The notes under the pieces are model-generated. The model saw only the letters and a list, made by a program, of their open reading frames with translations, made no database searches and was not told the origin of the DNA. A program made the translations under genes and the position numbers. This document shows, piece by piece, positions 36,782 through 41,737 of a stretch of DNA of 64,000 bases (position 1 is its first letter; every line of letters starts with the position of its first letter). This stretch comes from Aestuariispira ectoiniformans (lineage in GTDB: Bacteria; Pseudomonadota; Alphaproteobacteria; UBA8366; Aestuariispiraceae). The stretch is from assembly GCF_025136295.1 (NCBI RefSeq), contig NZ_CP062788.1, positions 3,427,588 through 3,491,587 of the forward strand, in the 5' to 3' direction.

Positions 36782-37612
36782 ATGATTATGAGCATGCAGA
36801 AAAAACACGGAAAGATTCGAAAGGGCGGCAACAAGCCGCGCCGGCCGGACCACGTAAAAGCCGGCGCCCCCGGCCCCGCCCTGCCTCCGGCCAAAGGGGG
36901 GCAATACTGGCTGTATGGCAATCACCCCGTCCAGGCCGCCCTGGCCAATGACAGCCGGCGTTTTCGCATGCTGGCCTGTACCAAGGCCCAGGCTGATGCC
37001 TATGGCGCAACGGCAGAACGCCGTGGCATAGAGACCAAACTGGTGGACCGCGCGAGCCTCGACCAGCTTTTTCCCGAAGGCACCGTTCATCAGGGGATCG
37101 CCGCCCTTGTCCAACCACTGGAAGAAACCTTCCTTGAGGATTTGCTCTTCAGCCTGCCGGACCATGCGACCTACGTTGTCCTCGATCAGGTAACCGATCC
37201 CCATAACGTTGGAGCGATCCTGCGCACAGCAGCCGTTTTCGGTGCCGATGCGGTCATCATGCAGGACCGGCACGCCCCGCCGGAATCGGCAGTCCTCGCC
37301 AAAAGCGCAAGCGGAGCGTTGGAAACAACCCCTCTCGTTCGCGTGCCCAACCTGGCACGCGCGCTGGAGCATATGAAGGACGCAGGTTTCTGGTGTGCTG
37401 GCCTTGCAGGAGAGTCGGAAACCGACCTGCCCGACTTCACACGCCCCGACCGTGCGGCAATCGTGATGGGGGCCGAAGGCAGCGGACTGCGCCGCCTCAC
37501 CCGGGACCATTGCGACGTCCTTCTACGCATTCCCATGGCGGAAAACGCCGTCGGCAGTCTGAATGTGTCCAATGCCGCCGCGATTGTGCTTTACGCATTG
37601 TGCAGTCGTTAG
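36782..37612 (+). CDS. rlmB: 23S rRNA (guanosine-2'-O) methyltransferase, RlmB/TrmH family
   Basis: SPOUT-family enzyme that in E. coli methylates G2251 of 23S rRNA. 276 aa: a basic, disordered N-terminus (KKHGKIRKGGNKPRRP), a substrate-binding domain (WLYGNHPVQAAL), then the knotted catalytic domain with LDQVTDPHNVGAILRT, IVMGAEGSGLRRL and VGSLNVSNAAAIVLY, the three SpoU motifs. It is divergent from the tRNA-tuf unit. There are two nearby ATGs at the start; I used the first. Confidence 0.93.
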   Translation: MIMSMQKKHGKIRKGGNKPRRPDHVKAGAPGPALPPAKGGQYWLYGNHPVQAALANDSRRFRMLACTKAQADAYGATAERRGIETKLVDRASLDQLFPEGTVHQGIAALVQPLEETFLEDLLFSLPDHATYVVLDQVTDPHNVGAILRTAAVFGADAVIMQDRHAPPESAVLAKSASGALETTPLVRVPNLARALEHMKDAGFWCAGLAGESETDLPDFTRPDRAAIVMGAEGSGLRRLTRDHCDVLLRIPMAENAVGSLNVSNAAAIVLYALCSR

Positions 37613-37760: not shown

Positions 37761-38735
37761 TTGTACAAGTCATACCGTAATGCGCTGGCCTTGGCCGGCG
37801 TTGTTGTTTTGTCTGCCTGTGCAGTGCCGGACAAACCAGTACCGAAAGCCGAGGCGCCAGCCACACAGGCCGAACAGGAAACAGCGCAGGAAGCCACTTT
37901 GCTTCCCGATACCAAACGCCTCAAACGTAAGGTCGCAATTGCGCGCTTCACCAATGAAACCCGATATGGGAAAACATTTCTTCGAAACAAAAGCGACGAT
38001 CCGCTCGGAAAGCAGGCGACAGACATGCTCACGGCCGATCTCGTTAAATCCGGCCAGTTCATGGTCTTCGAACGTCCCGATATCGAGAAAATCAAATCGG
38101 AGCAGGCCTACCTCAAGGCCGAACAGAACCTTATTGGCGTGGACACGCTGGTTGTTGGTTCCGTGACTGAATTCGGTCGCCACACCACCGGCAAGACCGG
38201 CTTTTTCAGCTCTACCAAAAAGCAGCTCGCACGTGCGACCGTGGAGATTCGCTTGGTCGACACCCGGACCGGGCACGCCTTCTTCTCCGCCGAAGGCCAC
38301 GGCGAAGCCAGCAGCGAGGCTGGCAATGTGGCTGGATTCGGCAACCGGGCCGAATATGACGGTACCGTCAACGACCGCGCAATTGGCGCTGCTGTTTCCG
38401 ACGTCGTCAGCAGCCTTATCTCGAAACTTGATGAACGTCCCTGGCGTACCGACATCCTCAAGATCGAAGGCGACAAGATGTATATCAGTGGCGGAAAGTT
38501 TCAGGGTTTGAAAGTCGGTGACAGACTTAACGTCATGAAGGCCGGTGAAACGATCCGCAGTGAGCAGACCGGCTTTGATATCGAGCTGCCGGCGACAAAA
38601 GTCGGCACCATCGAAATCCTGGCGCATTTCGGCAACACGGAAGACGACGAAGGCTCCATTGCCGTCATTCAGCAAAACAACTTTGCGGCGCTGCCTGTGA
38701 AATCACTCTTCATTGAAGAAGGGGACGCGTCATGA
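37761..38735 (+). CDS. CsgG/HfaB-family outer-membrane lipoprotein
   Basis: Predicted lipoprotein of the CsgG family (pore- or assembly-type lipoproteins of curli, HfaB and LpoB-like systems). I set the start at a TTG codon (37761) because GAGGGGG precedes it by 6 nt and the product then begins with a proper lipoprotein signal (basic YKSYR, hydrophobic core, LSAC lipobox near residue 20). This gives 324 aa. The open frame to 37677 would bury the signal. Core segments are KRKVAIARFTNETRYGKTF, GKQATDMLTADLVKSGQF and ATVEIRLVDTRTGHAFFSAE. It is the first gene of a four-gene cassette; its stop overlaps the next start (ATGA). No curli subunit gene lies nearby. Confidence 0.85.
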   Translation: MYKSYRNALALAGVVVLSACAVPDKPVPKAEAPATQAEQETAQEATLLPDTKRLKRKVAIARFTNETRYGKTFLRNKSDDPLGKQATDMLTADLVKSGQFMVFERPDIEKIKSEQAYLKAEQNLIGVDTLVVGSVTEFGRHTTGKTGFFSSTKKQLARATVEIRLVDTRTGHAFFSAEGHGEASSEAGNVAGFGNRAEYDGTVNDRAIGAAVSDVVSSLISKLDERPWRTDILKIEGDKMYISGGKFQGLKVGDRLNVMKAGETIRSEQTGFDIELPATKVGTIEILAHFGNTEDDEGSIAVIQQNNFAALPVKSLFIEEGDAS

Positions 38736-39031
38736 AGAAATTCTTTTCCGCACTCCTAATATCCATCACGCTAGCCGCCTGCAGCCATCCGACGGAACGG
38801 ACAGCCGCACCCGACATGCGCCCCGGCATCGCTTTCCAGAACGTACCCGCAACCGCAATGGTCTACGTCGATGGACTGGAGATGGGGATGGCCGGAGACT
38901 ATGACGGTAAAAAGCAGAGCCTGACGGTTATCAAAGGCACTCATCTCATCGAGATCCGCAAGGACGGCGAAACACTGCTCTCCAGAAAGATCTACGTGGC
39001 CGGTGATTCTGTCACCATCCTCCGCCCCTGA
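38732..39031 (+). CDS. small PEGA-like predicted lipoprotein
   Basis: 99 aa, no function known to me. A signal sequence with an LAAC lipobox (Cys17) is followed by a short beta-rich domain, IAFQNVPATAMVYVDGLEMG and HLIEIRKDGETLLSRKIYV. It resembles a PEGA-type fold in which a small sugar- or surface-binding domain follows a membrane anchor. It overlaps the CsgG-like gene by 4 bases and lies 19 nt before the next gene, so it belongs to the same operon. Confidence 0.75.
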   Translation: MKKFFSALLISITLAACSHPTERTAAPDMRPGIAFQNVPATAMVYVDGLEMGMAGDYDGKKQSLTVIKGTHLIEIRKDGETLLSRKIYVAGDSVTILRP

Positions 39032-39050
39032 TGTGATGGATTAGAAAATA

Positions 39051-39446
39051 ATGATAAACAACTCCTTTAAAAAAGGAGCGGTCGCGGCTGTGCTGTTGAC
39101 TGTTCTGGTCGGTTGTCAGACCGACCGCTACATGTGGGGCTCCTACGATCAGGACCTCTACAACTATTATCGGGATACAGAGCAACGTACTGCCCTGGAA
39201 ACGAATCTGTTGGAAACGCTGGAAAAAGCTGAGCAAAAAGGCAAGGTACCGCCGGGACTATACGCCGAATACGGTTATTTGCTCATGCAGGACGGTCGAT
39301 ACGACGATGCCCGCCGCTACTTCGAGCTTGAGAAGAAACTTTGGCCGGAATCCACCAAACTGATGGACGCGGTTATCCGGGTCACGGCAGTAGACGAAGG
39401 CAACAAAGACAAAGAGGAGCAGGCCAGTGCAGAAACTGTTCAATAA
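39051..39446 (+). CDS. DUF4810-like lipoprotein
   Basis: 131 aa with a lipoprotein signal (TVLVGCQTDRY, lipobox LVGC). The mature part has YMWGSYDQDLYNYYRD and a TPR-like helix pair (PPGLYAEYGYLLMQDGRYDD and ARRYFELEKKLWPES). This matches the pattern I know for DUF4810 proteins, which are found beside CsgG- and DUF799-family genes. Its stop lies 20 bases inside the next coding region, so translation is coupled. Confidence 0.75.
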   Translation: MINNSFKKGAVAAVLLTVLVGCQTDRYMWGSYDQDLYNYYRDTEQRTALETNLLETLEKAEQKGKVPPGLYAEYGYLLMQDGRYDDARRYFELEKKLWPESTKLMDAVIRVTAVDEGNKDKEEQASAETVQ

Positions 39447-40188
39447 AGGCATTCTCCTCGGCCTTGTGATTACGGCCCTCACTGCCTGCCAAACCACACT
39501 GCCCAAGGCTGACTACACTATGTACCGGGAGCTGGATCCAAAATCCATCCTTGTGGTCATGCCCGTGAACCGCAGTGTCGAGGTAGAGGCACCGGACTAC
39601 TTCCTGACCACAATTGCCAAGCCAATTGCAGAGAAGGGATATTATGTCTTCCCGGTAAACCTCGTCAAAAACGTCATGGACGAAGAAGGTATGTCGGATG
39701 CGGACCTGGTTCACAGTTCCGACCCGACTGTGCTGGGTGAGCTATTCGGTGCGGATGCAATTCTTTACGTCTCCATTGATAAGTGGACATCGCAATGGGT
39801 AGTTTTCGACACGGTGACAACCGTGACATTTACCTACACTATGAAGAGCGGAGAAACCGGTGAGACCTTCTGGAGCAAAACCCAGAATCTGCAGTATTCC
39901 CCGAACCAGGGTGGCGGGGGCGGCGGCCTCGCGGGTTTGATCGCAAAGGCCGTGATTGCAGCCGTAGAACGGGCAGCACCGAATTATATACCGATGACGC
40001 GTCAGGCCAACGCCATTGCCGTCAATGCCAAAAACGACGGTATGCTGCCGGGCCCCTACTCTCCCGAATATAAATCCGGGGAGGAGGTCGTACAGACGAA
40101 AGAAGACGCAGCCTCCAAGGATCAACCCGCAGCGGAAGATGACACCACCGGGAAGCCGGAAGAGACTGCAGAAAAACCCTCTACATAA
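39427..40188 (+). CDS. DUF799-family lipoprotein (GNA1162-like)
   Basis: 253 aa with a GTG start (39427) overlapping the preceding gene by 20 bases. Lipobox LTAC; the mature domain has LDPKSILVVMPVNRSVEVEA and GELFGADAILYVSIDKWTSQ, typical of DUF799 proteins related to Neisseria GNA1162, a surface lipoprotein. A Gly-rich loop (NQGGGGGGLAG) and an acidic, disordered tail follow. Lipobox position +2 is Gln, which by the +2 rule predicts sorting to the outer membrane. Last gene of the cassette. Confidence 0.8.
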   Translation: MQKLFNKGILLGLVITALTACQTTLPKADYTMYRELDPKSILVVMPVNRSVEVEAPDYFLTTIAKPIAEKGYYVFPVNLVKNVMDEEGMSDADLVHSSDPTVLGELFGADAILYVSIDKWTSQWVVFDTVTTVTFTYTMKSGETGETFWSKTQNLQYSPNQGGGGGGLAGLIAKAVIAAVERAAPNYIPMTRQANAIAVNAKNDGMLPGPYSPEYKSGEEVVQTKEDAASKDQPAAEDDTTGKPEETAEKPST

Positions 40189-40320: not shown

Positions 40321-40396
<76 letters not shown>

Positions 40397-40567: not shown

Positions 40568-41737
40568 ATGTTATTTCAGTTAATACATACGGCAGGTTCT
40601 ACTATTTATTTTGTGATTCTGATTGTCCTGCTCCTGTCGCGACGGATCCCACGGGCGGATTCAGGGGCCGGCTGGTGGTCGATCGCCATCTGTTTTGAAC
40701 TGGCGGGCCGTATTCTGCTGTTCATCATACAGGACAACGACAATGCCTTACTGCTGTATTCAACGCTGAATGTCCTGGAAAAACCGTTTCTTCTGATCGG
40801 CATCATCCGCTTTCTCAAAGTGGATACGCCAGTCGCAAGCATCTGGGCCACTGCCTTTGCCGCGGAATGCGTCATGCTACTGGCCTGGATAACAGACATC
40901 CCCTTGCCGGCCTATCGGGTTGGATATGCGATGGTCAATGTGGCTTTCCTGCTTGCCGCCGCCGTCATCTCCTTTCGCTATCGCCACAGGATTCCAAACC
41001 GCATAATGGTGGGTGTGGCCATCCTGAGTACCCTGCTCGCCCTGCATTGGCTGTCGGTTTATCCGATCATGTTTGCATATCCTGCCTGGCAGGATCTGGG
41101 ATTTGTTATCGGCACCGCCTGCGTCCTTGGTATCTATCTCCTGCTGTTGTGCGCGATGCTCTCGACATTGATCAGGCGCCTGCTGGATGCCGAGGAAGCG
41201 GCCCTCGACCTCGCCTATCATGCCCCCCTGACCGGACTGAAGAACAAGCGCTACACGGTGAACCTTTTCGACAGCGCCATCGTCCTGGCCAACCGCCCTC
41301 ACCAGTTCATGGCCGTCTTCTATATCGACCTGGACAACTTCAAACCCATCAACGACACAGCCGGGCACCGTGTCGGCGACAAGGTCCTAAAAATCGTTGC
41401 CAACCGGCTAGAAACCCATACCCGCAGCACGGATATATGCGCTCGTCTGGGTGGCGATGAATTTATTATCGTCGGCACACAGTTCGAACATCTGGATCAT
41501 GTCTCCGACATGGCCAACAAGCTTCTCGAACAGCTCACCCAGGCGATTCCCCTTGAGAGGGAGACATATGAACTTGGTGCCAGCATCGGGATCAGCCGCT
41601 ATCCGGAAGATGGTGACAATCTGCCGGACCTGATCGAAAAGGCCGACAAGGCGATGTATGAGGTCAAGCGGAGAGGGCAAAGCGGATTTGAATTCTATGC
41701 CTCGACGCCTCACGCGGTTTCGGCACGACAGTCCTAG
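40568..41737 (+). CDS. membrane-bound diguanylate cyclase (GGDEF)
   Basis: Makes cyclic-di-GMP from GTP at the inner membrane. 389 aa: about six or seven hydrophobic helices over residues 1-205, then a GGDEF domain with YIDLDNFKPIND and ICARLGGDEFIIVG. The inhibitory I-site RSTD lies five residues before GGDEF, so product inhibition is expected. No EAL domain follows. The N-terminal region has no recognisable ligand-binding fold. Its TAG stop overlaps the stop of the convergent GNAT gene. Confidence 0.9.
   Translation: MLFQLIHTAGSTIYFVILIVLLLSRRIPRADSGAGWWSIAICFELAGRILLFIIQDNDNALLLYSTLNVLEKPFLLIGIIRFLKVDTPVASIWATAFAAECVMLLAWITDIPLPAYRVGYAMVNVAFLLAAAVISFRYRHRIPNRIMVGVAILSTLLALHWLSVYPIMFAYPAWQDLGFVIGTACVLGIYLLLLCAMLSTLIRRLLDAEEAALDLAYHAPLTGLKNKRYTVNLFDSAIVLANRPHQFMAVFYIDLDNFKPINDTAGHRVGDKVLKIVANRLETHTRSTDICARLGGDEFIIVGTQFEHLDHVSDMANKLLEQLTQAIPLERETYELGASIGISRYPEDGDNLPDLIEKADKAMYEVKRRGQSGFEFYASTPHAVSARQS

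Follow-up and report, generated by a model that had tools for sequence, protein, structure and literature searches.

A four-lipoprotein operon with a long CsgG-family protein in Aestuariispira ectoiniformans and other bacteria

What does a CsgG-family protein do when it is encoded together with three other lipoproteins and no curli gene is found beside it? This question is raised by a locus of Aestuariispira ectoiniformans. It lies in the window, which is the whole stretch of 64,000 nt that was analyzed (NZ_CP062788.1, assembly GCF_025136295.1, positions 3,427,588–3,491,587, forward strand).

The operon is found on the + strand. On its left is rlmB (36782–37612, +; NCBIfam TIGR00186, 1e-58), which is outside the module, and on its right a tRNA-Thr gene (40321–40396, +), which adjoins rlmB in relatives without the cassette. 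The first gene (37761–38735) has a TTG start behind AGAGGGGG and codes for a CsgG-family lipoprotein of 324 aa (Pfam CsgG, PF03783, 6e-34). This is a long form of the protein, in which a CsgG/TolB_N-like alpha/beta part is followed by a FlgT_C/TsaP-like C-terminal domain at about residues 229–324 (38444–38735; strands at 229–320 in the model). The second gene (38732–39031) codes for a small PEGA-like lipoprotein of 99 aa, the third (39051–39446) for a TPR-like DUF4810 lipoprotein of 131 aa (Pfam DUF4810, 3e-25) and the fourth (39427–40188, GTG start) for a GNA1162-like (DUF799) lipoprotein of 253 aa (Pfam GNA1162-like, 3e-43). The first two genes overlap by 4 nt, the second and third are 19 nt apart, and the last two overlap by 20 nt. 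The Pfam matches of the first, third and fourth proteins exceed the cut-off by far. CsgG and the GNA1162-like protein have one copy each in the host genome.

The lipoboxes, with the residue that follows, are LSAC-A in CsgG, LAAC-S in the small protein, LVGC-Q in DUF4810 and LTAC-Q in the GNA1162-like protein. The sequence-only reading had listed these four lipoprotein ORFs, none of them with Asp at +2, and we have found them as described. The lipobox cysteine is invariant across the alignments of homologues: C20 in 62 CsgG, C17 in 61 small proteins, C22 in 36 DUF4810 and C21 in 33 GNA1162-like proteins. Asp at +2 is nearly missing, it is present in one of 69 small proteins and in none of the CsgG, DUF4810 and GNA1162-like homologues. 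To judge from these signals, all four lipoproteins are probably anchored in the outer membrane. Two divergent CsgG homologues have no lipobox (L041, 3302–4255, and L038, 2201–3133), their signal peptide looks ordinary and lacks the cysteine, while the other members of these operons retain theirs.

Two forms of the operon

A phylum-wide search has detected DUF4810 in 40 of 398 genomes, and every locus that we fetched has CsgG and GNA1162-like genes on its two sides, in the same order. In the window, the three families are also adjacent, in this order and on one strand. The search for conserved gene order around DUF799 and DUF4810 homologues, which had been suggested from the sequence, thus gives a conserved triad, CsgG-DUF4810-GNA1162, and this triad exists in two versions.

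The three-gene version is found in 29 loci (L010–L036, L039 and L043). It has a short CsgG of about 220–240 aa, which stops where the C-terminal domain of the long form begins, and no small gene. The four-gene version has a CsgG of at least 309 aa, which includes the extra C-terminal domain, and the small gene directly behind it, before DUF4810. Such loci comprise 80 obtained with a long-CsgG profile, together with plasmid and further loci; a few of them end at a contig edge before the last genes. The order is identical in about 90 loci, far beyond chance, and 85–90% of the junctions within the operon, in the loci compared, are overlapping or at most 10 nt apart. The conserved operon of four lipoproteins is therefore real, as had been proposed.

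The small gene and the CsgG C-terminal domain are both present in about 94 loci and both absent from 29, without exception; we give this coupling as counts rather than as a P value, the loci being phylogenetically non-independent. The long-CsgG profile searches with patterns from the first half of CsgG, so that the C-terminal domain did not serve as bait, although full-length matches are favoured by the ranking. When the small protein was searched for separately, in 299 genomes, ten matches were obtained, all of them directly upstream of DUF4810 and adjoining a long CsgG, which in one case is split by a frameshift. In these 299 genomes the small protein is found only in this slot. Since neither the sets of loci nor the 299-genome search present any exception, the small protein and the C-terminal domain go together, which is our main new result.

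Two individual loci should be mentioned. In L131 (506–1470), the long CsgG is broken into frames of 272 and 58 aa, with the break a short way into the C-terminal domain, next to a small gene that is intact. In L020, an apparent PEGA-like match was discarded: It falls on the GNA1162-like ORF and stems from an ORF of excessive length in the profile.

Of the two forms, the one with three genes has been noted before, without being characterised. In A. baumannii genomic islands, a CsgG homologue has been described in an operon of three lipoproteins, and this operon has been proposed to influence outer-membrane permeability (PMC3224125). From an Acinetobacter contig, we infer that this operon is the CsgG/DUF4810/GNA1162 triad. 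The meningococcal genes NMB1124–1126 and NMB1162–1164, and probably the operon of A. baumannii islands G19ST25 and G19ST78, share with the window the same core families in the same order, their lipoprotein nature and the absence of curli genes, but they have neither the small PEGA-like gene nor the CsgG C-terminal domain. Among the typed vesicle antigens of meningococci are CsgG and GNA1162 members (PMC6338130). The system had been called undescribed: This is not the case for the three-gene form, whose meningococcal versions are vaccine-vesicle proteins, but we have found no description of the four-gene form in the open literature (closed-access papers and preprints were outside the scope of the search). 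DUF4810 is not found by name in the open-access papers searched.

Distribution and surroundings of the operon

The four-gene form is found in Pseudomonadota, Nitrospirota, Kiritimatiellota, Verrucomicrobiota, Acidobacteriota, Myxococcota, Thermodesulfobacteriota, Planctomycetota and Binatota, with several loci coming from metagenome bins. In a species-level genome collection, 464 stretches encode a relative of the query; we have analyzed the best 80 of these 464, so the 464 may also include stretches of other forms than the four-gene one. Identical cassettes are found in two bins, one titled Pseudomonadaceae and the other Alphaproteobacteria (L054 and L055), so at least one of these titles is probably wrong.

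A concatenated tree of the four-gene form follows the phyla fairly well (10 label changes, where 8 is the minimum), which suggests that the module is mostly old and has been patchily kept, with some transfer. A highly mobile cassette is rejected for this reason. No cassette is found in other genomes of the window's family, where we have detected one weak partial GNA1162-like match. Four of these genomes have an empty gap of about 87–169 bp between rlmB and tRNA-Thr; the gap in the window is 2.7 kb and is filled by the cassette. This adjacency in the relatives indicates that the cassette would have been gained in the lineage of the window or lost in its relatives, in either case as a clean unit. 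Kiloniella is the nearest relative (65% identity in CsgG, full tree support), and it has the cassette at another site, which favours movement of the unit. In Kiloniella spongiae (L044, 5064–10307), this site is directly behind genes which read as pspF, pspA and pspC. The Psp linkage is limited to Kiloniella: No other locus has PspA.

Plasmid copies of the cassette are found in Polaromonas and Novosphingobium. Together with the A. baumannii islands and the absence from other genomes of the family, they might suggest an accessory trait, of surface or exclusion type, that mobile elements have spread, for example a protection of the outer membrane against phages or bacteriocins. We consider this very unlikely, as the tree is mostly by phyla, we have found no flanking repeats which could mark an insertion, PADLOC gave no match to anti-phage systems, and the "phage" copy sits among bacterial metabolic genes. 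This copy is a three-gene form in a record named Acinetobacter phage MD-2021a (L148, 1–13851, CAKLQH020000025.1), surrounded by paaJ, aroP, puuB and ydcW. The records under this name seem to be pieces of host chromosome registered under phage, and they probably explain the matches to PHROG families 17898, 17414 and 18664; a phage-borne module is thus rejected. IMG/VR has one 5.3-kb contig with a match.

On the Polaromonas plasmid pPNAP04 (L040, 6300–10618), tellurite-resistance-type genes (VWA, TerD and TerY-like) adjoin the cassette. A small ORF of about 102–118 aa is found just downstream of the cassette in this plasmid (5745–6053) and in a Paraburkholderia replicon (L042, 6031–6387), with 67% identity between them; the Polaromonas copy has no Pfam match.

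A co-occurring substrate gene had been proposed as something to look for, and no conserved neighbour that could be one has been found. The commonest Pfam family is present in only two of the 73 nearest upstream proteins and three of the 66 nearest downstream ones, and clustering of all flanking ORFs does not detect any gene at a fixed position. A conserved substrate or regulator next door is rejected by these scans, and the operon looks self-sufficient. No flagellar family recurs among the neighbours, and there is no enrichment of Sigma54 or RpoE motifs upstream of the operon. A PAS/GGDEF-type cluster is present in 19 of the flanking regions, at varying places, which is probably explained by how common these genes are; the window itself has a GGDEF-type gene downstream of the cassette, 3' of tRNA-Thr (40568–41737).

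The absence of curli genes, noticed beside the cassette, extends to the whole host genome: Neither the curlin repeat (PF07012) nor CsgF (PF10614) gives a match, and the E. coli controls are positive for both. A curli system (type VIII secretion) is rejected on these grounds.

Folds of the four proteins

The structures considered here are single-chain predicted models, with a pLDDT of 85 for the long CsgG and 91 for the small protein. The best structural match of the long CsgG model is FlgT, from the H-ring of the Vibrio polar flagellum, over nearly the whole folded length of the model and better than CsgG itself. The Z score is 18.2 for 8z5n (rmsd 3.6, 245 residues, model residues 36–322) and 15.0 for 3w1e, compared with 13.4 for CsgG and 12.8 for PelC; FlgT matches span model residues 36–324. 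FlgT shares the architecture of the middle and C-terminal domains, and a Pfam FlgT_C match is found in nine of 67 CsgG homologues. On the other hand, the identity is about 13%, the long CsgG is a lipoprotein, it has no Pfam match to the N-terminal domain of FlgT (the alignment starts at FlgT residue 94–104), and there are no flagellar genes beside it. Overall, the occurrence of the module in many lineages seems to be independent of flagella. PelC, a protein of Pel export (5t10, 5t11), shares the alpha/beta fold. It is a lipid-anchored ring without a barrel of its own. Unlike our protein, PelC has no FlgT_C-like domain or DUF4810 and GNA1162 partners, and it sits in a polysaccharide operon.

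An export pore had been the first suggestion for this cassette, and it is still the main rival explanation: The CsgG homologue would be a true CsgG-type barrel and the other three proteins its adaptor, gate or cap, with a peptide or polysaccharide substrate encoded elsewhere. All 67 homologues have a strong Pfam CsgG match, CsgG and membrane-bound CsgG are among the structural matches, and the protein shares with the curli channel (4uv2, 4uv3) its lipoprotein nature and two hairpins at the same place, with extended strands predicted. Nevertheless, these hairpins are 7–9 residues shorter (family medians 23 and 27 residues, 30 and 36 in E. coli CsgG, L134), the constriction loop has the same length but a different sequence, there is an extra C-terminal domain, and CsgA, CsgB and CsgF are missing. 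The apolar faces of the hairpins are weaker than in E. coli CsgG, and weakest in the window protein, in a test which is itself weak, since it sets the family apart from E. coli CsgG but fails to distinguish E. coli CsgG from the background. With a better fit to FlgT and no conserved neighbour as substrate, the pore explanation is weakened and we regard it as unlikely.

The small protein was thought to be the least described part, and this is borne out. It has no match to PEGA (PF08308) in the window, 13 of 66 homologues do match (best 1e-6), and there are no other PEGA matches in the host genome. Its model is all-beta and PEGA-like, with weak structural matches in PDB. The fourth protein is a direct homologue of Neisseria meningitidis GNA1162 (4hrv; 4e-27 by sequence, 8e-60 by profile), which comes from a three-gene form. 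That structure has been described as similar to TolB and LptE, with unknown function (PMC6497663).

The DUF4810 profile matches TPR chains, among them CpoB (6g5s, 0.0016). As CsgG homologues match TolB_N (31 of 67) and, weakly, LpoB (four of 67), the complex might coordinate peptidoglycan synthesis or cell constriction at the outer membrane, in the way of LpoB with CpoB and TolB. This seems improbable to us: The LpoB matches do not reach the curated cut-off, CpoB is outscored by generic TPR chains, and a patchy distribution is ill-suited to a basic division role. The fold is also common to many unrelated lipoproteins (PelC, LptE, PqiC and HpaA), which makes it uninformative about function.

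A possible outer-membrane scaffold

We favour a different explanation, to which we assign a probability of about 45%: The four proteins would form a periplasmic ring or scaffold of lipoproteins anchored in the outer membrane, which organises or stabilises this membrane. The four genes would be a single transcription unit for this complex. The long CsgG may oligomerise to a ring beneath the outer membrane, similar to the FlgT H-ring or PelC, and the models suggest that it would have no curli-type transmembrane barrel. The GNA1162-like protein, with its related alpha/beta fold, and the TPR-like DUF4810 would be obligate partners, common to the three-gene form, and the PEGA-like lipoprotein would dock on the C-terminal domain unique to the long CsgG. 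Such a complex would be self-contained, with no linked substrate, and its most likely role would be in envelope integrity, surface growth or biofilm. An envelope stress device, as suggested from the sequence, may be considered as well.

The fixed gene order, the coupling of gene and domain, FlgT as best match, the short hairpins and the lack of a conserved neighbour all support the ring or scaffold. Two observations on the three-gene form also agree with it: The 4CMenB vesicle lipoproteins include NMB1126/1164 and NMB1125/1163, the CsgG and DUF4810-slot members (PMC10097807), and expression of the NMB1162- and NMB1164-like genes rises in biofilms of H. parasuis and A. pleuropneumoniae (PMC4245831). 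Against it, the likeness to FlgT is that of a monomer and does not prove the same assembly, and CsgG builds a pore from the same domain, whose hairpins are shorter here but present.

A bolder proposal, which we put forward as doubtful, is that many phyla have an unrecognised ring machine of the outer membrane, independent of flagella, made of a FlgT-like lipoprotein and three dedicated lipoproteins, with the PEGA-like subunit and the FlgT_C-like domain gained or lost together.

Among the proteins of the three-gene form are meningococcal components of vesicle vaccines and lipoproteins induced in biofilm, which are still uncharacterised. Seen as one obligate module, with a four-gene form that contains a FlgT-like subunit and pairs a domain with a gene, their function becomes testable, by asking which proteins co-purify, which genes to delete and which domain to truncate.
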